A stretch of 30,065 bases of DNA from a virus. The DNA lies in the IMG/VR virus record IMGVR_UViG_3300009068_000129, positions 1 through 30,065 of that record; one strand, 5' to 3'. This document shows, piece by piece, positions 12,010 through 22,683 of the stretch. Each line of letters opens with the position of its first letter. Within the stretch, counting starts at the first letter, position 1. The notes below the pieces were generated by a model that did not search any database, was not told the DNA's origin, and saw only the letters and a program-made list of their open reading frames with translations. Both the position numbers and the translations under genes were made by a program.

Positions 12010-12025
12010 TTATCGGAAACGATAG
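12010..12025. promoter_or_regulatory. TATCG palindrome between convergent operons
   Basis: TTATCGGAAACGATAG starts at the stop codon of the 93 aa gene and lies 5-10 bases from the bidirectional terminator stem, a stoperator-like position. Confidence 0.7.
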
Positions 12026-12029
12026 AAAC

Positions 12030-12066
12030 AAAAAAGCCCACAGGGATTTTACTCCTTGTGGGCTTA
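12030..12066. terminator. Bidirectional terminator between convergent operons
   Basis: AAGCCCACA pairs with TGTGGGCTT around a GGGATTTTACTCCT loop that can pair further (AGG/CCT). On the minus strand the stem is followed by TTTTTTGTTTC, a good intrinsic terminator for the helicase operon. On the plus strand it is followed by ATTGCTTT, weaker. Confidence 0.8.
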
Positions 12067-12071
12067 TTGCT

Positions 12072-13694
12072 TTAGACTTTCGGTGCTACGGATATCGAAC
12101 CATCTATCTCCCCATCCATGAGGGTATCCATCCGCTTGAGCTTGGCATCGAGCGAACTACAGACTGACTCCTCGATGTCTACACCAGCGGCGTAGATGAG
12201 GTACTGGATTGACTTAGACTTACCTCCAGCCCGGTGTACCCTACCTAGAACTTGCTTGAGATCAAAGACCGAATAGGTAGGCATGATCAGAGCAACTCTA
12301 GAATGCTGACCAGTTACATCGTGGAGGTTTAATCCTTCACGACAGGCTTGGATGATCCCAATCATCACCCGTGATCGATCACCTTGGAAAGAATCGATAT
12401 TCCCTCGTCGGATGAGGTCACTCTGACCTCCATGAATCGCACAAGTAGTCTTCAACTGATCTTGCATGAACTTGAGGGTTTCGGTGAAGTTGACTGCAAT
12501 GAACACGCTATTCCCTTCCTCAATCAAATCCTTGACCATAGCACATACTGCTGGTGCTTTGAAGAGTTCGATCTTCTGACGGGCGCGGGTCATCTCTGCT
12601 AGTACTGCACCCATAGAAGAGGCAGCGTTCTCTTGCATACGAATCTGTTCTACTCTGACCATCACGTCTTCGTACTCTTTCGCTATCTCTCTGGCGGTAT
12701 CCATATCGAATGCTCTGGCTTGGATGAGCGTCTCTGGGAATGCATCACCTACATCAGAGGGCTTGAGCCGATTACCCTTGTCGGGGAAGATCAGACCATG
12801 AAGGTTCTTGAGAACCTTATTGCCACCTCTGAACTGCATACCGAACTGGGTCTGGACGCATCCGCAACCATTGAGGAAGCGGAAGTAGTCTTTGCCACCT
12901 TGATGCAGACCTAAGAACTGACCGATTGCCCACATCTTTGTGGGATCATCTGCCATTGTCGCAGAAAGAGCAATCGTGGGTACGTTCTGCACAACGCAAT
13001 CCCGAAGCATGAAAGCATTCTGGGTATTACCTTGTGCCTTGGCACGGTGAACCTCATCAATGATAAGATCGGTATCTGGTGGAAGAGTGAACTGGAAATG
13101 CTTCTTCTTGTCATCTGTCCATTTGCCAATCTTACTCTTGCCTGTCTTCGCCCACTCCCATCCGCAAACTTCGTAGGTTTCAACGCCGAAGTATTTCGCC
13201 ATCCTATGCCAATCGGTAGTGATCGGCTTAGGACAGATAACAGCTACCTTCCTGCCCCGTTCCCGCGCAACTGCAAGAGCAATAGCTGTCTTGCCCATCC
13301 CAGTCCCATGACCAAGTAAGGCGCGATTATACTTGAGCATGGAACGAAGAGCCAACTGAACTGAAGTGAGTTGGTACTCAAACAACTTTTCTGGGTATAC
13401 CAGAGCAGGAAGATCATACTTAATCTCTGGTTCAGGTTGTTTCTCAGCGGAAGGGATTATCGGAAACGATAGGTCTTCCCTAGACCACCAAGCTAACTCC
13501 CAAGCATCTCTGAACTTGGAAAGCTGGAGGCCGAGGTCACCCATTGCTTGTTTGTAATCATCACGATCCTCGCGGTAAATATCCCAGAACTCCTGCGTGA
13601 CACTCGCCTTCCGAAGAAGACGAGGGCCACGTTTGGTTGAAGTGGACATTGGCTGCGAGAACTCAACGGAATCTAGTAATGCTTTAAGATTCAT
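12072..13694 (-). CDS. Superfamily 2 (SNF2-type) DNA helicase/ATPase
   Basis: Two RecA-like domains are visible. Domain 1 has a Q-motif-like YQLTSVQLAL, Walker A GHGTGMGKT (residues 128-136), Walker B IIDEVH (DEVH at 213-216) and motif III ALSATMA (SAT at 244-246). Domain 2 has motif V ACREGLNLHD and motif VI QVLGRVHRAG near residue 485 with the arginine finger. The first 95 residues are family-specific. It probably remodels or unwinds DNA in replication or repair. It is the last gene of the leftward small-gene operon; its start overlaps the 50 aa gene by 11 bases and has AAGGGAAG upstream. A TATCG palindrome lies inside at 13457-13472. Confidence 0.93.
   Translation of the reverse strand: MNLKALLDSVEFSQPMSTSTKRGPRLLRKASVTQEFWDIYREDRDDYKQAMGDLGLQLSKFRDAWELAWWSREDLSFPIIPSAEKQPEPEIKYDLPALVYPEKLFEYQLTSVQLALRSMLKYNRALLGHGTGMGKTAIALAVARERGRKVAVICPKPITTDWHRMAKYFGVETYEVCGWEWAKTGKSKIGKWTDDKKKHFQFTLPPDTDLIIDEVHRAKAQGNTQNAFMLRDCVVQNVPTIALSATMADDPTKMWAIGQFLGLHQGGKDYFRFLNGCGCVQTQFGMQFRGGNKVLKNLHGLIFPDKGNRLKPSDVGDAFPETLIQARAFDMDTAREIAKEYEDVMVRVEQIRMQENAASSMGAVLAEMTRARQKIELFKAPAVCAMVKDLIEEGNSVFIAVNFTETLKFMQDQLKTTCAIHGGQSDLIRRGNIDSFQGDRSRVMIGIIQACREGLNLHDVTGQHSRVALIMPTYSVFDLKQVLGRVHRAGGKSKSIQYLIYAAGVDIEESVCSSLDAKLKRMDTLMDGEIDGSISVAPKV
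13457..13472. promoter_or_regulatory. TATCG palindrome inside helicase gene
   Basis: TTATCGGAAACGATAG, intragenic, in the N-terminal part of the helicase coding region. Confidence 0.7.
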
Positions 13695-14108: not shown

Positions 14109-14257
14109 TTCTTGAATGGGATGGATTTAATGTTTTTTTTAGGATAGACAGTTGACTTGAACTTTGGCATCTCTTGTGACTTGGAAGAGGTTTGCCAGAG
14201 TCGGATGTATGCCTCTGGTGGAAGGCACGTTGCTTGGTTCTTTTCGGTGTAGCTCAT
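14105..14257 (-). CDS. Small basic protein, 50 aa
   Basis: ATG at 14257-14255 overlaps the stop of the 72 aa gene by ATGA, and its stop overlaps the next ATG in the same way. The product contains CLPPEAYIRLWQTSSKSQEM and a basic tail ending KSIPFKK. No conserved domain recognised; the double ATGA overlap is strong support for translation. Confidence 0.65.
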   Translation of the reverse strand: MSYTEKNQATCLPPEAYIRLWQTSSKSQEMPKFKSTVYPKKNIKSIPFKK

Positions 14258-14472
14258 TTGACTATATCAGTATTGTATTTATTATTGATGTAAGCAATCA
14301 GTTGTTTGAGAACTGATTGTTTGTTTCCTTTGAATCCAAAGCTGCTCTTTGCTATTCCATAGGCGGTATGTCCTTTGCTATGCTTCATGCCAGCACACTC
14401 TAATTTGAGTGCTGACTTGAGTTTTAGAAGAGCATAAAGCTCAAACTGCTGTGGTTCTATTATGGTGTTCAT
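14254..14472 (-). CDS. Small conserved-type phage protein, 72 aa
   Basis: Helical protein with the pattern LKLECAGMKHSKGHTAYGIA followed by FGFKGNKQSVLKQL, a layout I associate with small conserved phage/plasmid proteins of unknown role (from memory, not searched). It is the gene directly downstream of intercistronic RNA element A. Its last bases form an ATGA overlap with the next gene. Confidence 0.75.
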   Translation of the reverse strand: MNTIIEPQQFELYALLKLKSALKLECAGMKHSKGHTAYGIAKSSFGFKGNKQSVLKQLIAYINNKYNTDIVK

Positions 14473-14490
14473 TATGTTTTGGTTTCTCCA

Positions 14491-14554
14491 GTAGCACTAT
14501 GCTACCAGACTGCCAGCCACTATCGTTTCCGATAATGACTGGAGTGTCTGGTTA
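14491..14554 (-). ncRNA. Intercistronic RNA element A
   Basis: Read on the minus strand from the stop codon of the 183 aa gene: CCAGAC, ACT, a 13-bp stem with two G-U pairs and a GAAA tetraloop (TATCG-GAAA-CGATA at 14520-14535), CA, GTCTGG; then a second hairpin GTAGCA-TAG-TGCTAC (plus 14491-14505). On the plus strand the two G-U pairs become C-A mismatches, so selection appears to act on the minus-strand RNA. It ends 18 bases before the ATG of the 72 aa gene. Confidence 0.75.
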
Positions 14555-15103
14555 CAACTCTGCTTTTGCAAGTAACTCGCCCATCACTTTGACGTGGGAA
14601 AGTACAATTACATTAGGGTTTGTAATGACAACTAGCTTCTCGCCATCTGTACCCCTGCATAACCCTTCAATAATGCCATTCAAAACTTTACTCTCGCGAG
14701 ATTTATCAAAAACCTCTGATCCGTAGAATACTCTCATGTTTGGTTCGCATGAAGAGTAAACACGAATAGTTCCAACTGCACCGAACCCCTGACTATGCCG
14801 AATATCAATGTAATGGTGATGAGTGCCATAGATGTTTCCATTGAACATGGTAATGCCATCTGGATCACTAGCATCATGGCGATGAGTTATAGTGATGCCC
14901 AACTTGGATAGCTTGTGAGAATCCTCAAAAACTACCTTTAGCCTTTCGACTAGGCATACCAATCCGCAACGGGCAAGCCCATCACGAACCTCTCTCTGTT
15001 CTATTCTAGTTCTTTCTATTCCCTGCTCCGATTGAAGATGGGCAAGATGCTTCTCTTTGGCTTCTTTTACTGCGGTTCTTATATTTTGTTGGTCTGTTAT
15101 CAT
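14552..15103 (-). CDS. Phage protein of unknown function, 183 aa
   Basis: The N-terminal 45 residues form a charged helix (KEAKEKHLAHLQSEQGIER). The rest is predicted mixed alpha/beta with a His-rich segment (ITHRHDASDPDG, GTHHHYIDIRHSQGFG) that could bind metal, though no known enzyme motif matches. It lies between RNA elements B (upstream) and A (downstream; its stop codon is the first part of A). No family recognised. Confidence 0.75.
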   Translation of the reverse strand: MITDQQNIRTAVKEAKEKHLAHLQSEQGIERTRIEQREVRDGLARCGLVCLVERLKVVFEDSHKLSKLGITITHRHDASDPDGITMFNGNIYGTHHHYIDIRHSQGFGAVGTIRVYSSCEPNMRVFYGSEVFDKSRESKVLNGIIEGLCRGTDGEKLVVITNPNVIVLSHVKVMGELLAKAEL

Positions 15104-15125
15104 ATTTTATGTTTCGTGTTTTACC

Positions 15126-15192
15126 GATTACACCATGTAATCAGACTGCTCCCCACTATCGTAAAACGATAATGAGGAGAGTGTCTGGTTAC
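15126..15192 (-). ncRNA. Intercistronic RNA element B
   Basis: Minus strand: GTAACCAGAC / ACT / 13-bp stem CTCCTCATTATCG-TTTTA-CGATAGTGGGGAG (two G-U pairs, no mismatch) / CA / GTCTGATTAC, then second hairpin GATTACA-TGG-TGTAATC. The stop codon of the 139 aa gene (TAA, 15189-15191) is inside the outer stem. ATTAC can pair either upstream with GTAAC or downstream with GTAAT. The ACACGAAA box follows, then the ATG of the 183 aa gene. Confidence 0.78.
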
Positions 15193-15608
15193 GGACAAGC
15201 GTGATTGTAGCAATCTTCTGCTGAGTCAAACGGGCCTTGAGCCATAGCCATATCATCATGGTAATACCATCCGGGATGCTCGACACCTGTCACTTGGAAG
15301 GGGTCAACATCCTTGATGGATGAGGTGATATAGTCGATGAGCTTCTTGGCTTCTGGAAGCCAACAGGCTTGACCGTATTCGATCCAACTACCATCACGGA
15401 TCATTGCATCTTGATAGTTGTTTACTTCCTCGCGAAAGGCAGCATCATCATACTCCTTTAGAACAACCCCAGCTAGCATATAGGTGAACGGGCCACCTAA
15501 AGGGGTTAAGTTATATGTTTGATTGAGCATCTCGATAGTAGCTTCTTCGACATCTATGGAGTCATTTTCATCATAGACTCTATCTAGTATGTATTGTTCT
15601 CTTGTCAT
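15189..15608 (-). CDS. Phage protein of unknown function, 139 aa
   Basis: Acidic protein with helical segments (YILDRVYDENDSIDVEEATI; FREEVNNYQDAMIRDG) and a C-terminus VTGVEHPGWYYHDDMAMAQG followed by PFDSAEDCYNHACP, where Trp, His and two Cys could contact a metal (speculative). Its stop codon lies within RNA element B. A 38-base gap without a hairpin element separates it from the 60 aa gene. Confidence 0.75.
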   Translation of the reverse strand: MTREQYILDRVYDENDSIDVEEATIEMLNQTYNLTPLGGPFTYMLAGVVLKEYDDAAFREEVNNYQDAMIRDGSWIEYGQACWLPEAKKLIDYITSSIKDVDPFQVTGVEHPGWYYHDDMAMAQGPFDSAEDCYNHACP

Positions 15609-15646
15609 GTTATTCTATTGGTTTGTTGTTTTGAATTAAACATTTA

Positions 15647-15829
15647 TTACCAATGGAGTTCTCCATCAGCACCATATCCTGCGGGTTCTAAGGCTTCACG
15701 CTTATCATCAGCAATTTTTTTATCAACTATTGCTGACGCTTCTTCCCAAGAACGAGCTTCCACACTATAAACTTCTACATAGTTAGGATTTTCTGGAATT
15801 GGAACTATTTCTATTTTATAGATATTCAT
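15647..15829 (-). CDS. Small phage protein, 60 aa
   Basis: A beta-strand/helix protein (IYKIEIVPIPENPNYVEVYS, then ARSWEEASAIVDKKIADDKR). It is the gene downstream of RNA element C; here the ACACGAAA box is about 22 bases from the ATG, farther than in the other elements. Function unknown. Confidence 0.7.
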   Translation of the reverse strand: MNIYKIEIVPIPENPNYVEVYSVEARSWEEASAIVDKKIADDKREALEPAGYGADGELHW

Positions 15830-15865
15830 ATATTTTCTTTCTATTTATTGTTTCGTGTTTTTCCA

Positions 15866-15930
15866 CTTACACTATGTAAGCAGACTGCTGGCGTTATCGT
15901 AAAACGATAACACCAGAGTGTCTGACTACG
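15866..15930 (-). ncRNA. Intercistronic RNA element C
   Basis: Minus strand: CAGAC / ACT / 12-bp stem CTGGTGTTATCG-TTTTA-CGATAACGCCAG (one G-U) / CA / GTCTG, then second hairpin CTTACA-TAG-TGTAAG. The TAG stop of the 54 aa gene (15926-15928) is in the outer strand. The plus-strand palindrome is 15894-15910 with a five-base centre. Confidence 0.78.
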
Positions 15931-16090
15931 CATAGAATCTGCCGTCACATACCCGGATGACTTGCTTGTCCTTCTTGGTAATGATTGTGACGATAGACTT
16001 CTTGGGAGTGATGGCGCGACATACGCCGATTGACTTCTTGGGGATAGCATCGAAGAGCTTTCGCGCCTTCGACTTGGTTACTTCAAGCAT
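15926..16090 (-). CDS. Small basic protein, 54 aa
   Basis: ATG at 16090-16088, stop TAG within RNA element C. The product is Lys/Ile/Val-rich (MLEVTKSKARKLFDAIPKKS; AITPKKSIVTIITKKDKQ; ends VCDGRFYA), predicted as a helix plus beta-strands. It explains a 200-base interval that would otherwise be empty. No family recognised. Confidence 0.65.
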   Translation of the reverse strand: MLEVTKSKARKLFDAIPKKSIGVCRAITPKKSIVTIITKKDKQVIRVCDGRFYA

Positions 16091-16157
16091 AAATAAGATA
16101 GAATTATAGTGATTTGGAATATGAGAATAAACCCTACGAAGATAATTGTATCTCTAC

Positions 16158-16835
16158 TCACACGATAGCCTCCTTAGCTTTCTTGAGTTGGTAACCATGA
16201 GGGTTAATCCAGACTGAAGGAAGAGAAGAGCGGCGATTGTTACCATCACACAAGCCGCATTCAGAGCATTGAAGACCCTTGGCATCTGCTAAACATTCAA
16301 TATCGTTAACGAGAGGTTTCTCGCTGACAGTGAATGTGCGAAGACCGAGGTTCTTGGCATACTCCACATTGTGAGTATTGGTAGATGCCATGAAGTAACG
16401 TCCATAGGACTTGGCTAGATCAACTGGCATCTGATGCCAATCATGGAAGTAGCCTGTAATCCTACGGGCTAGGCTAGTGATGCTATGGATCATCTCAAGT
16501 GGGAGATGAGATGGATTGCCATAAGCCCCGAACCTAACGTAAGGCACAGAGAAGAAGTCATGCCACTCGCGTGTACCCATATGAAGGTATTCATATGAGC
16601 CGCGCTTGTATGCTCTCCAGATTGAACCGAGAGGATTGTCATTTACATAACACCCCTGCTTGGATGCAAACTCGCATCCATTGCATTGATTGTCTGCGTC
16701 AGCACCTTTCCGAGATTCGGTAGGATGCATACGAGCATCCATAATCCAAATCTGGATAGACTTGCCTGTCTTGATGTTTTTGCTTGCTCTTGTGGCTATG
16801 ACCACAATGTCGTTGGTTTCGTGTATAATATACAT
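16158..16835 (-). CDS. Cys-rich conserved phage protein, probable metal binding, 225 aa
   Basis: I recognise the layout of a widespread phage family (from memory, possibly DUF7227): CNGCEFASKQGCYVN near residues 51-65, a WRAYKRGSYEY segment, VRFGAYGNPSHLP, ITGYFHDWHQMP, FMASTNTHN, LGLRTFTVSEK, and a C-terminal CSECGLCDG. The two cysteine clusters suggest bound zinc or an iron-sulfur cluster. The order (Cys cluster, aromatic/Gly-Asn core, Cys cluster) is conserved in such proteins, but their biochemical role is unknown to me. It lies between RNA elements D (upstream, 5' end) and the 54 aa gene. Confidence 0.8.
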   Translation of the reverse strand: MYIIHETNDIVVIATRASKNIKTGKSIQIWIMDARMHPTESRKGADADNQCNGCEFASKQGCYVNDNPLGSIWRAYKRGSYEYLHMGTREWHDFFSVPYVRFGAYGNPSHLPLEMIHSITSLARRITGYFHDWHQMPVDLAKSYGRYFMASTNTHNVEYAKNLGLRTFTVSEKPLVNDIECLADAKGLQCSECGLCDGNNRRSSLPSVWINPHGYQLKKAKEAIV

Positions 16836-16847
16836 TTCGTGTTTTCC

Positions 16848-16912
16848 GACATGGTTGTATGTCAGACTGCTACCGACTATCGTTTACGATAATCGGCAGA
16901 GTGTCTGAATTA
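16848..16912 (-). ncRNA. Intercistronic RNA element D
   Basis: Minus strand: TCAGAC / ACT / 13-bp stem CTGCCGATTATCG-TAAA-CGATAGTCGGTAG (two G-U) / CA / GTCTGA, then second hairpin GACAT-ACAACC-ATGTC. It begins at the TAA of the 172 aa gene and ends at GGAAAACACGAAATG, where ATG is the start of the 225 aa gene, so the box directly abuts the start codon. Confidence 0.78.
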
Positions 16913-17428
16913 ACCTATCAATTCAGAATCCCATCCGCAGAAGAAATCTCCACGGACGCATTCGCGCAGATGAGCAAAATTTGAGAAGTCAAATTGCTCT
17001 TTGTTTTCTCTGATATATTTGATGCGCTCTTTTGTATTAAAGCAATCAGACCAGATGCGTTGAGCTTCTTCCGATTGCTTGTCTGAATAGTCAGACTCAT
17101 CAAGACAAGGATAGTCATCAAGTTCATCGACTATTTTGACAGCTTCATCATAAGATGGAGTGCCAGCGCGGACAGCAAGAGCTTCCCACCATCCACAAGC
17201 CCAATGACCAAAGCGATGAATTTTAACATCATTACTTTCGCCACCGAGCCGCTGCAATGCGCATTCCCAATTAGATTCTGTAAGTAAATCAGAATCGCGG
17301 GAGCGAGTAAGAACTTTGTGCCACTCGTTTGTTGGAACATCTCCGAGGTAATTATCGAGAGAGTCGAATGCTGATGGTCTTGCGATTACTTCACTCAAAA
17401 GAGGAAGTGTTGTAGTTGTAGTATTCAT
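16910..17428 (-). CDS. Conserved phage protein of unknown function, 172 aa
   Basis: It carries a motif series that recurs in a broad phage family of unknown role (recognised from memory): TRSRDSDLLTESNWE, VKIHRFGHWACGWWEAL, then DELDDYPCLDESDYSDKQSE and a C-terminal helix with an invariant-looking RIKYI. The central GHWACGWW suggests a compact domain, but no catalytic assignment is possible. Downstream of RNA element E, upstream of D; its TAA is the first codon of D. Confidence 0.82.
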   Translation of the reverse strand: MNTTTTTLPLLSEVIARPSAFDSLDNYLGDVPTNEWHKVLTRSRDSDLLTESNWECALQRLGGESNDVKIHRFGHWACGWWEALAVRAGTPSYDEAVKIVDELDDYPCLDESDYSDKQSEEAQRIWSDCFNTKERIKYIRENKEQFDFSNFAHLRECVRGDFFCGWDSELIG

Positions 17429-17443
17429 TTGTTTCGTGTTTTC

Positions 17444-17510
17444 GCTGATTGGTTGTAATCAGCCTGCTGCCCTGCTATCGTAAACGATAACAGAGCAGAG
17501 TGGCTAACTA
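17444..17510 (-). ncRNA. Intercistronic RNA element E
   Basis: Minus strand: GTAGTTAGCC / ACT / 14-bp stem CTGCTCTGTTATCG-TTTA-CGATAGCAGGGCAG (two G-U) / CA / GGCTGATTAC, then second hairpin GCTGATT-ACAACC-AATCAGC. The outer pair AGCC/GGCT replaces AGAC/GTCT of the other copies, a compensatory change. The 47 aa gene's TAG is in the outer strand; the ACACGAAA box and the ATG of the 172 aa gene follow. Confidence 0.8.
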
Positions 17511-17647
17511 CGCAGGTAGCGTAGGGCTTCGATGTAGGAACGAATCCGCTTTCTGAAGTAAGGGTTGTGGCGTAATAGCCAGAATTCCTTGATGGATTTT
17601 AAGGTAGCAACATGGAGTGTTACCTTGATGTCGTATGGAATGTTCAT
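17504..17647 (-). CDS. Small basic aromatic protein, 47 aa
   Basis: ATG at 17647-17645 overlaps the stop of the 86 aa gene (ATGA), and the TAG stop lies in RNA element E. The product is Arg/Tyr/Leu-rich (KSIKEFWLLRHNPYFRKRIR; SYIEALRYLRS) and may form an amphipathic basic helix, for example for nucleic-acid contact. No family recognised. Confidence 0.68.
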   Translation of the reverse strand: MNIPYDIKVTLHVATLKSIKEFWLLRHNPYFRKRIRSYIEALRYLRS

Positions 17648-17904
17648 TTGATGATTAGTAAGCCCATGATGAGAAGCTCCTCATACCCATAGACGGTTTT
17701 GTTATCACAAGCCTCACAGAGGTAACGACGAGCGTCAGGTTCAACGCCATCAACTTCCTCGCCACAAGTGAGACACCATCCTCGACATCCCATGCCGAAC
17801 ATCACATCTTTCATCTCTTCATCGGACATGACTGGGATGACATACTTCTTACCACTATCGGAAACGATATCTTTAGTAGTCATATTATGAGTGAGCGTAG
17901 CCAT
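17644..17904 (-). CDS. Small zinc-ribbon phage protein, 86 aa
   Basis: Contains a four-cysteine ribbon, CRGWCLTCGEEVDGVEPDAR then YLCEAC, followed by VYGYEELLI. This GxCxxCGxxxxGVEPDA...CExC pattern is common in short phage-encoded proteins of unknown role, likely zinc binding. It overlaps the upstream 74 aa gene by 20 bases and the downstream 47 aa gene by ATGA. AGGAGG lies one base before the ATG, too close to be an optimal ribosome site. A TATCG palindrome is at 17855-17870. Confidence 0.82.
   Translation of the reverse strand: MATLTHNMTTKDIVSDSGKKYVIPVMSDEEMKDVMFGMGCRGWCLTCGEEVDGVEPDARRYLCEACDNKTVYGYEELLIMGLLIIK
17855..17870. promoter_or_regulatory. TATCG palindrome inside zinc-ribbon gene
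   Basis: CTATCGGAAACGATAT, intragenic, near the 5' end of the 86 aa gene. The flanking sequence does not form the larger RNA element. Confidence 0.7.
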
Positions 17905-18109
17905 CCTCCTCGATGCCGATTGTTGACCAAGGAAACTCGACCATCACGACATTGTCACTCCCAAAACCTTTGTAAAGGTTCAGAGGTTCTCCATGCCGCT
18001 CGACGAGGCGTTTGAATACTAACTGCTGGGTTGGATTGGCAAATACAAACTTTGCGCCGTGAACGGGCGAATTGATTGTAATTGTTCCACTTTCTTCGAT
18101 TATGTTCAT
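17885..18109 (-). CDS. Small phage protein, first gene of leftward operon, 74 aa
   Basis: Predicted beta-rich then helical (GTITINSPVHGAKFVFANPT; QQLVFKRLVERHGEPLNL), acidic C-terminus. It is the promoter-proximal gene of the 12-18 kb operon and follows a leader of about 190 bases with its own hairpins. Function unknown. Confidence 0.75.
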   Translation of the reverse strand: MNIIEESGTITINSPVHGAKFVFANPTQQLVFKRLVERHGEPLNLYKGFGSDNVVMVEFPWSTIGIEEDGYAHS

Positions 18110-18230
18110 TTGTTTTCGTGTGTTATGACTCTGCGTTTGCGTTATGCTTTACGGGCTTGTCACCGATTGATTATCGTAAAACGATAACCAAGCCGCATTA
18201 ACCTTGCCGCCCAAAGCGAACGACAAGGCC
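18107..18230 (-). ncRNA. Structured leader of the small-gene operon (element F, divergent copy)
   Basis: On the minus strand an 8-bp hairpin CCTTGTCG/CGGCAAGG is followed by GGCTT-G-GTTATCG-TTTTA-CGATAAT and, after a ten-base interval, AAGCC: a relative of elements A-E with the TATCG tip (18171-18187) but without the ACT/CA internal loop. The ACACGAAA box precedes the ATG of the 74 aa gene as in elements B-E. Confidence 0.55.
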
Positions 18231-18309: not shown

Positions 18310-18338
18310 AGTATAGCACAAGACCCCTCCTTTGTCAA
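18310..18338 (-). promoter_or_regulatory. Strong sigma70-type promoter of the leftward small-gene operon
   Basis: Minus strand TTGACA (18338-18333), exactly 17 bases, TATACT (18315-18310). The expected start is near 18303, giving a leader of about 195 bases. A perfect 12-bp palindrome ACTATTAATAGT (18301-18312) overlaps the -10 and start region and could be an operator. Confidence 0.82.
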
Positions 18339-18983: not shown

Positions 18984-19032
18984 AGAGGAAGAGCAGATCA
19001 ACCGGGCGGATTTGAGCCAAAAAAAAGAGCCG

Positions 19033-19067
19033 AAAAAAGGCGACCCCCGAAGGGATCGCCTGATTTC
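19033..19067. terminator. Bidirectional terminator
   Basis: AGGCGA-CCCCCGAAGGGA-TCGCCT hairpin with CCC/GGG extension. On the minus strand it is followed by TTTTTTC (termination of the 241 aa/28 aa pair); on the plus strand by GATTTCTT (TerS-like gene). The 15 bases AAAAAAGGCGACCCC are repeated exactly at 27368, before the replication operon. Confidence 0.8.
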
Positions 19068-21035: not shown

Positions 21036-21574
21036 GCTATATTGTAGTAGGCTTTTCCGTAGCAGCCCGATCTTGCTAGTTGGGTTGTACTACCTTCCTT
21101 ACCTAACCATTGGTCTAGGTTTTCTTTTGTGAGTTCTATGGGATGACCTTCGTGTGGTGGGATGTCTACCCATTCAAAGAGTCTGACTATCTTAGCTGCG
21201 CGTTTTGCGTTTTGGATTATTAGCTCTGGGTCATCGGTGTGCTGGAGACAATTGTAAATCCACGCTTCATCGAATTTATCGTTACCGATAAAATCTTCCC
21301 CTCGGATTACTAAGCAATCTATTTTCTTAGCTTCGTACCTAGCGTAAGTCCATTGAGGATACATTAGGGGATCAACAACCAATCCTTTTTCTAGGTTAGT
21401 TGTTTTCAGTAACATGGAAGTTGGCCCTCCCCCTATATCTACTACGGACTTTCCTGACATAGAGAACGAATACCCTACGATATGTAGTCCCATGTATTGG
21501 GCATAGACATAGTGTTTCTGATCCTCGTCGTAAGTATTACAGCAGTCTCCCCAGTATTCTGATTCAAAACTCAT
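21032..21574 (-). CDS. SAM-dependent methyltransferase
   Basis: Class I methyltransferase with the SAM-binding loop VVDIGGGPTS (residues 44-53), an acidic residue in the following strand (GLVVDPLMY), and a third strand FDEAWIYNCLQHTDDPE. The N-terminus EYWGDCCNTYDEDQKHYVYA is characteristic of its subfamily. The substrate is unknown; lying in ATGA overlap with the glycosyltransferase upstream suggests a shared sugar or glycan substrate, but DNA or a small molecule is not excluded. A TATCG palindrome lies inside at 21276-21291. Confidence 0.85.
   Translation of the reverse strand: MSFESEYWGDCCNTYDEDQKHYVYAQYMGLHIVGYSFSMSGKSVVDIGGGPTSMLLKTTNLEKGLVVDPLMYPQWTYARYEAKKIDCLVIRGEDFIGNDKFDEAWIYNCLQHTDDPELIIQNAKRAAKIVRLFEWVDIPPHEGHPIELTKENLDQWLGKEGSTTQLARSGCYGKAYYNIA
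21276..21291. promoter_or_regulatory. TATCG palindrome inside methyltransferase gene
   Basis: TTATCGTTACCGATAA, intragenic copy. Confidence 0.7.
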
Positions 21575-22683
21575 GGATAGTATTTGTAGAGTGAGTTAAG
21601 GCCGTTTCCGTCTGCGTACCATCCCCGACCTTGGTAGATGTCTAGGATGTCATTAAAGTACTTCTCGTACATTGGGGCTACTTTATCTAAGGTGAAGTTC
21701 TTCCCGAAGGCTAGGCAGTCCGCTGGTCTGATCTTTTTAATGTTGTGCATGGCATCTATGAAGTCTCCCATAGTCCTGCATCGGTATCCTGTGATTCCGT
21801 GTGGGTTGTTTTCTGCGAAGCAGCCCCAGTCTGTCGTTATAGTTGGAGTACCAGAGAGTAAGTTCTCTACTTGGACTCCGCCGAAGGGTTCTACATACAT
21901 CGAAGGGATGAAGGAAGCTGTTGCGTTGGACATTAACTTCTTTCTTTTATTCACATCTGCGTAGCCTACATACTCAACGTGATCTGGGAGATTGTAACCT
22001 TCCTCTTTTTGCCCAGCTATAACTAGTTTTTTGCCTAAGATTTCAGTCGCTTGAATAGCGATTTCAACTCCTTTACCAGAATATACCCGACCAAGGTAAA
22101 GATAGTAATCTTCTTTTTTCTCGTTATAATCGAAATCATCAATATCAAAATAGTTGGGTATGACAACTTCATACCAGTCTTGTCTACAATTACCTACCCC
22201 TTGCATACCAGCATAAGCGTGGTAGATAGCATAGGATTCAAATACTTTAAATCTGGCCCAGTGACCACCAGCATAACCAATGCCCGGTTCAACACAGATT
22301 AGGTCTGGATTAGCGTCACAGATCGGTCTGACTCCCGATCCCCAGAAGGGGAGGATAAAGTCATTTTTTTGTTTTCTCTTATCTACTTCTTCAATAGCGT
22401 TTTTGTAGAAGGTTTGATAAGCATGGTCGTTAGTATCAAACTTAAAAAATGTCTTACGCCAGTCATGGCTTCCATAAGATTTCTTAAAGTCATCATTGGT
22501 TAATACAGTGACGTGTTCCGTACATTGCAAGTTAGAGTCTTCATGCCCGTAGTGGATGACTTCATGCCCACGTTCCGTCATCATCTTTCCGAATTTAACT
22601 ACTTTTTGTGTATAAGCACAGGCGTTAAATTCTTTAGATGAGACGGTATGAGGAAGCCCTAAAATATGATATCGGTGTTTCAC
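21571..22683 (-). CDS. GT4-type glycosyltransferase, 5' end rebuilt after HNH insertion
   Basis: GT-B-fold retaining glycosyltransferase: donor-binding domain with LYLGRVYSGKG (195-205), VIAGQKEEGY, and the signature EPFGGVQVE (265-273). It transfers sugar from a nucleotide donor to an unknown acceptor. The current start is a GTG at 22683 in a GTGA overlap with the HNH stop. The sequence HILGLP at its N-terminus occurs again 0.8 kb upstream right after the 68 aa gene, where an ATGA-coupled start would be expected; the HNH gene appears to have been inserted between the two copies. The stop overlaps the methyltransferase ATG by ATGA. Confidence 0.88.
   Translation of the reverse strand: MKHRYHILGLPHTVSSKEFNACAYTQKVVKFGKMMTERGHEVIHYGHEDSNLQCTEHVTVLTNDDFKKSYGSHDWRKTFFKFDTNDHAYQTFYKNAIEEVDKRKQKNDFILPFWGSGVRPICDANPDLICVEPGIGYAGGHWARFKVFESYAIYHAYAGMQGVGNCRQDWYEVVIPNYFDIDDFDYNEKKEDYYLYLGRVYSGKGVEIAIQATEILGKKLVIAGQKEEGYNLPDHVEYVGYADVNKRKKLMSNATASFIPSMYVEPFGGVQVENLLSGTPTITTDWGCFAENNPHGITGYRCRTMGDFIDAMHNIKKIRPADCLAFGKNFTLDKVAPMYEKYFNDILDIYQGRGWYADGNGLNSLYKYYP

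Follow-up and report, generated by a model that had tools for sequence, protein, structure and literature searches.

A family of intercistronic phage RNA elements with two competing predicted folds, in an operon headed by a predicted twister ribozyme

The DNA analysed here is a virus record of 30,065 bp (base pairs), referred to below as the window. Its minus strand carries an operon of mostly small genes, and five of the gaps between these genes hold copies (elements A–E) of a structured RNA element composed of two hairpins. Comparison of the window with related viral sequences gives good support to the view that the elements form a real intercistronic RNA family that is selected for its structure. 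Equally well supported, on the same comparison, is a two-state fold in which two of the stems, P1 and P3, are mutually exclusive. The role of the element is a more tentative matter, and we suggest one that involves processing of the operon mRNA.

The operon runs from a predicted sigma-70 promoter (TTGACA-N17-TATACT, 18310..18338, minus strand), which has 11 of the 12 consensus bases and is conserved in relatives, to about 13.8 kb (kilobases). Downstream of the promoter lie a predicted type-P1 twister ribozyme (18123..18204, minus strand) and an A-rich tail, ACACGAAAACAA (18110..18122), which separates it from the first ATG. The genes are likewise on the minus strand. The first (17885..18109) encodes 74 amino acids (aa) and belongs to no family; it is followed by F4 (17644..17904, 86 aa) and F10 (17504..17646, 47 aa), which ends inside element E. 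Between elements E and D is a gene of 172 aa (16910..17428), the slot of which is empty, absent or occupied by other genes in relatives. F5 (16158..16835, 225 aa, PHROG 2554, unknown function) and F9 (15926..16090, 54 aa, ending at element C) lie between D and C. Element C is followed by a gene of 60 aa (15647..15829) and by F2 (15189..15608, 139 aa), which ends at element B. F13 (14552..15103, 183 aa) lies between B and A, and F3 (14254..14472, 72 aa, PHROG 19182) follows A. Shine-Dalgarno motifs are nearly absent upstream of the window genes, both inside the operon and outside it; together with the canonical sigma-70 promoter of the operon this offers a hint about the host.

Read on the mRNA strand, each element consists of the upstream stop codon, one nucleotide (nt), YAGAC (the 5′ strand of stem P1), ACU, the 5′ arm of P2, a cap, the 3′ arm of P2, CA, GUCUG (the 3′ strand of P1) and the hairpin P3, after which come an A-rich leader and the ATG of the next gene. 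In the window copies P1 has 5 bp, P2 has 13–14 bp and the internal loop between them is ACU/CA. Element A (14488..14554) starts with the stop codon TAA (14554-14552), followed by the P1 5′ strand (14550-14546, CAGAC), ACT (14545-14543), P2 (14542-14513), CA (14512-14511), the P1 3′ strand (14510-14506, GTCTG) and P3 (14508-14488), with CTG common to the last two; its covariance-model score is 90.1 bits. Element B (15124..15191, 90.5 bits) begins with TAA and has P1 at 15187-15183, ACT, P2 at 15179-15149, CA, the P1 3′ strand at 15146-15142 and P3 at 15144-15124. In element C (15863..15928, 85.3 bits) the stop codon is TAG, P1 is at 15924-15920, ACT precedes P2 (15916-15888), and CA precedes the P1 3′ strand (15885-15881) and P3 (15883-15863). 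Element D (16846..16912, 77.1 bits), again with TAA, has P1 at 16907-16903, ACT, P2 at 16899-16870, CA, the P1 3′ strand at 16867-16863 and P3 at 16865-16846; the predicted energies of its two folds are nearly equal. In element E (17445..17510, 71 bits) the stop codon TAG (17506-17504) lies inside P1 (TAGCC, 17506-17502), and is followed by ACT, P2 (17498-17467), CA, the P1 3′ strand (17464-17460, GGCTG) and P3 (17462-17445).

An earlier note on this DNA had described a common minus-strand architecture in these five gaps, and it is present in all of them: folding z-scores on the minus strand range from −5.4 to −6.6 (0/200 shuffles as good), and folding of the same gaps on the plus strand is weaker (−1.8 to −4.5). 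Stems that differ in sequence and yet remain paired, including the exchange of AGAC/GTCT for AGCC/GGCT in element E, were found as that note had reported. It had also let each element run from a stop codon to the next start. The elements do begin exactly at the stop, but they end ∼ 10–35 nt before the ATG; the A-rich leader that follows elements B–E is AAAACACGAAA. There is no promoter-like site on the minus strand inside the five elements and no terminator call in the gaps; no T run follows the element hairpins, so the hairpin plus U run of an intrinsic terminator is lacking. Readthrough of the stop codons was considered and rejected, as, judged by eye, the reading frames in B and C end before the element does. 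The earlier note had recognized no described family, and indeed no Rfam family matches any of the five, in either the gathering search or a relaxed search (E ≤ 5).

A covariance model built from the five window copies (R1), used with a pattern search, yielded 53 distinct copies in 16 closely related records, with 2–6 per record and all of them in the same operon; pattern and R1 gave nothing convincing outside that operon in these records. A scan that did not demand the TATCG cap added six more divergent records (L135–L140), and R1 a seventh, L071 (= L156). A second model (R2) together with a sequence-neutral descriptor places 1–3 elements in each of the seven, about a dozen in total, and the descriptor has no matches on the reversed sequence of the divergent loci. 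The family thus comprises 23 viral records. Beyond these, blastn of the operon and tblastn of the terminase gave no match among INPHARED phages. A pattern scan of bacterial genomes returned three matches, a number in line with the chance estimate, and the one inspected lacked the fold; five new contigs found with the pattern TAGCAGACACTC...GCAGTCT also lacked it and were rejected as chance. A literature search found no paper describing the family, which counts for little since most subscription papers fell outside the search. The family and its combination of ingredients appear to be new, whereas intercistronic processing hairpins, mutually exclusive folds and repeat shuffling are already known.

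Among the 53 close copies, P1 is paired in 265/265 alignment cells (100%) and P2 in 656/660 (99.4%); P3 is paired in 75% when held to a single register, types D and E using a shifted one. Two-sided changes occur at 19 of the 24 pairs, a count reached in 0/500 shuffles, and structures slid along the alignment collapse; with the divergent copies added (62 rows) the figure is 20/24. These alignments were fitted to the model and lean towards the structure. The wholly different P2 stems of L135, L136, L138, L140 and L071 are independent of such fitting, and their pairing can be read by eye. The earlier note had set covariation and presence in relatives as the test of its proposal, and both came out in its favour, with strong two-sided covariation and elements in the same operon of 16 related records. 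Its argument that RNA is the selected form is borne out as well: P1 and P2 of the 53 copies contain 119 G.U cells on the mRNA strand versus 0 A.C cells, which identifies the sense strand as the form under selection. The internal loop is less constant than had been claimed. ACU/CA holds throughout the window. Relatives vary at the third 5′ and the first 3′ position (ACU, ACA or ACG with CA, UA or AA), and AAG, AAA or AUU occurs in a few divergent copies. Both A's are invariant and the C is kept in 61/62, which makes these the most conserved unpaired positions; all hairpin loops vary.

The inner stem had further been described as ending in TATCG-loop-CGATA. This is true of the window, but the cap belongs to a separate palindrome found all over the genome, and some copies of the element do not have it. 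TATCG-N4-CGATA occurs 20 times in the 30-kb window (at 2636, 4445, 5589, 8584, 10169, 12011, 13458, 14521, 15157, 15895, 16878, 17476, 17856, 18172, 18387, 18944, 21277, 26011, 27566 and 29057), 10 of these inside open reading frames (ORFs), and 7–33 times in each close record, against 0–2 matches for the reversed control. It is conserved across the whole close phage group and absent from L064–L080 and most divergent records. The spacer measures 4 nt in 103/109 sites outside elements, and 5 nt in 16/63 sites inside elements or twister. Some elements carry the palindrome in P3 instead, and their P2 is closed by a GAAA- or GCAA-type loop. Since it is genome-wide and missing from many divergent copies, we regard it as a separate site and not as part of the element; it is probably recognized by a DNA-binding protein, and hairpin tips tolerate its presence. 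It resembles a stoperator- or partition-like DNA site. The idea that the element itself is a DNA operator acting through TATCG...CGATA was rejected, as copies capped by GAAA-type loops or UUCG keep the RNA fold and so do divergent phages without TATCG sites.

The second hairpin, P3, is present as the earlier note had it but is not an independent structure, because three nucleotides of the outer stem are common to both. In what we call State 1, P1 (5′ CAGAC with GUCUG), the AC/A internal loop above it and P2 would stack into one irregular hairpin ∼ 20 bp tall. The CUG that ends the P1 3′ strand is also able to pair with YRG after P3, and in this State 2 P3 would extend to 6–11 bp. With the shared CUG included, 49 of the 53 P3 hairpins are perfect and the other 4 contain a single mismatch. 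L135 and L140 have CAAGC/GCUUG as P1 and GCAAG as the P3 3′ strand, so that all three strands are altered in concert, and this argues that both folds are selected; in L071 the shared pairing is UCU:AGA. In predicted folding of the intact RNA, P1 forms with a probability of 0.96–0.99 in A, B, C and E, while D gives a mixture of the two folds (P1 at 0.35). If the RNA is masked as far as 8 nt beyond the start of P1, or trimmed so that it begins at GUCUG, extended P3 is predicted at 0.98–1.00 in all five. Masking and truncation have the same effect across the family: of 52 scored copies, 50 have extended P3 above 0.9, and the other two (window A, correctly scored in the set of five, and L013:1984) were mis-indexed. 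In a minority of copies the intact RNA lies nearer to a balance of the two folds. No P3 was found for L007:1889, and among the divergent copies the value of zero for L155:8640 is not meaningful, as the wrong P3 was chosen.

The position of the stop codon is fixed relative to P1. In nearly every close copy the upstream stop ends 1 nt before P1, ends directly at it, or is a UAG inside it, and this persists although the upstream genes are unrelated; divergent records agree with this to within a few nucleotides. When a stop codon is in the A site, the ribosome covers ∼ 10 more nucleotides. Here these would be the single nucleotide, the P1 5′ strand and ACU, from which we infer that a ribosome terminating there would keep the RNA in State 2.

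Ahead of the first gene the place of the element is taken by the predicted twister, whose core is UUAAUGCGGC / CGGUGACAAGCCCG / CAAACGCAGAG. In the relaxed Rfam search the leader (18204-18123) matches RF03160 with 34.7 bits (E 6e-5), below the gathering score of 67.2 bits. It has the conserved twister core, P2, P4 (which contains a TATCG palindrome) and both pseudoknots, and all close relatives with an available leader keep the core. Compensatory changes replace G-C by A-U in P2 of L023, and C-G by A-U in the T2 pseudoknot of L013 and L036. Stem P1 of the window twister is weak; twisters cleave without it (PMC5408937). The operon leader is thus likely, as judged from these features, to be a self-cutting ribozyme of the twister type. 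Elements A–E are not themselves twisters and form a family alongside it. The twister and elements B–E have the tail ACACGAAA in common, which suggests that the twister occupies before gene 1 the place that elements hold before later modules. An unrelated viral contig (L047, 1565-1620, plus strand) carries a complete-looking type-P1 twister, CATTTTAATGCGGCC...GGTGACAAGCCCG...AAACGCAGAGTCAAAATG, with the same core as the leader and a full P1.

Judged from the gene order in 14 operon copies, the elements act as borders of swappable gene modules. The modules between elements are gained or lost together with an element: F7 moves with its own, and where F13 is absent so is element A. The two-gene module F14–F15 occupies different slots in L024 and L030 versus L034, and is always bordered by elements. 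In L029 (3441-3608) two elements adjoin, with nothing but a 3-codon ORF in between, and the same is seen in L013, as if a gene cassette had been lost. Phages that have an F5 homologue at 57–62% identity are mostly without element, twister and palindrome, so F5 itself is not the partner.

Our preferred reading, a tentative one, is that of a two-state cis-acting RNA at the 3′ end of gene modules which would serve to process and cap the downstream mRNA. The leader twister would cut the transcript immediately ahead of the first gene. At later boundaries a double-strand nuclease would cleave the State 1 hairpin on the 3′ side of its internal loop, and by analogy with T7 the likeliest enzyme is RNase III; no RNase III domain was found in 12 phage records, so that a host enzyme would be needed. 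The freed GUCUG strand could then zip into P3. This would leave the downstream mRNA with a stable hairpin 1–2 nt from its 5′ end and the unstructured AAAACACGAAA...AUG leader after it. The upstream mRNA would retain P2 as a 3′ hairpin after its own stop codon. Stem-loops at the 5′ terminus stabilize mRNA in E. coli (Emory et al., 1992, as cited in PMC3997798). With the stop codon at the base of P1, P1 and the loop would be covered during termination; the ribosome would thereby keep the RNA in State 2 and couple processing to translation. That the element is in this sense a new class of RNA switch, responding to the terminating ribosome and controlling both the cutting of the operon mRNA and its re-capping with a 5′ hairpin, is the more doubtful part of the proposal.

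The earlier note had named the RNase III sites of T7 as the closest analogy, a fair one for placement and for the irregular hairpin. Like them, the elements lie between genes of a single transcript and form irregular hairpins whose internal loop is asymmetric; T7 R1.1 is 60 nt long with a 4/5-nt internal loop (PMC6121014). Unlike them, the elements are locked to a stop codon, adjoin a second hairpin that competes for the same strand, and form a covarying family across diverse phages, known here from sequence. Several observations weigh against the processing model. The duplex available to the nuclease is made up of 5–10 bp of P1 and 10–14 bp of P2 around a 2–3-nt loop; some copies are short, and with a P1 of only 5 bp, as in many of them, it may be too short for RNase III. 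Predicted folding of the intact RNA already favours State 2 in ∼ 10 close and several divergent copies. In some of the divergent elements additional structure separates P3 from the ATG, and twisters are detectable in the close clade only and in none of the divergent records. Finally, the AC/A loop seems to be conserved beyond what recognition by RNase III alone would demand, which could instead mean a protein-binding site.

The last point leads to the strongest rival, in which the P1/AC-A/P2 hairpin behind each gene is bound by a protein of the phage or the host. Such binding, with which P3 would compete, would coordinate translation or stability across the whole operon without cleavage. Highly conserved internal-loop bases next to freely varying hairpin loops are what such an operator would look like, and repeated copies in one operon would suit shared control. 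We nevertheless consider it unlikely, as the element follows stop codons, the leader before the ATG is open and start sites are not hidden, and no candidate binding protein was found. The shuffling of modules (F7, F13 with element A, F14–F15 in two slots, and the mini-ORF of L029) brings to mind gene-cassette boundaries, repeats that mainly serve module-swapping recombination. T4-type PeSLs are short repeated stem-loops between small variable genes and are associated with module shuffling (Arbiol 2010; Comeau 2014; both as reported in PMC4503421). Like PeSLs as described there, the elements bound shuffled gene modules; unlike PeSLs so described, they have neither promoter nor terminator and have a conserved two-state RNA fold. 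Integron attC arrays have a tyrosine recombinase nearby, and PF00589 is absent from the 12 records searched here, which may be incomplete (14/14 control genomes were positive). Homologous recombination at any conserved repeat would look alike, so that module swapping may be a by-product, and strand-specific G.U pairing together with the covariation of two competing folds points to selection on RNA. A primarily recombinational role is improbable for these reasons.

Antitermination or anti-polarity of the HK022 put type, in which a two-hairpin RNA binds RNA polymerase and, by suppressing pauses and termination, keeps it elongating through the operon, is slightly less probable still. The putRNA of HK022 is a cis-acting phage RNA of ∼ 70 nt with two stem-loops (PMC9378689); the elements match it in size and layout and are located where ribosomes leave the message. 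They differ from it in position, copy number and P1/P3 competition. The put sites occur once per early operon, downstream of the promoter (PMC9378689), and not after each gene; the promoter-proximal site here holds the twister, and we found no description of a conserved hairpin competition in put. The presence of a twister with the same downstream tail in the same operon could also mean that the elements are an analogous but new class of self-cleaving ribozyme. This we consider very improbable. Twister has at least 10 strongly conserved bases (PMC5408937), whereas only ∼ 3 unpaired core bases are strongly conserved in the element and every hairpin loop varies freely; no Rfam ribozyme matches the elements.

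If the processing model is correct, the switch and the leader twister would split the operon into separately protected messages without a phage-encoded nuclease. This is a testable answer to the question of how phages without their own RNA-processing enzymes handle many small genes transcribed from one promoter. A twister and intercistronic switches in one operon would then also constitute a concrete natural role for twister. The family adds to the structured RNAs absent from Rfam one that is present in at least 23 viral records and has competing folds that can be read from evolution, and its elements are clean objects for the study of how translation termination may control mRNA processing.

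Outside the operon, a glycosyltransferase gene of the window (21571-22683, minus strand, PHROG 3408) encodes a protein ∼ 72% identical to one in Synechococcus myoviruses; as the operon and terminase match no isolate, this suggests that the gene has moved between phages. A strong hairpin with a T run (AAGCCCACAAGGAGTAAAATCCCTGTGGGCTTTTTTG) at 12011-12073 lies between convergent genes and is likely to be a bidirectional terminator; a mir-7180 match at the same place is false. A further terminator-like hairpin, AGGCGATCCCTTCGGGGGTCGCCTTTTTT, is located at 19021-19060 (minus strand) and gives a weak match to CsrC.

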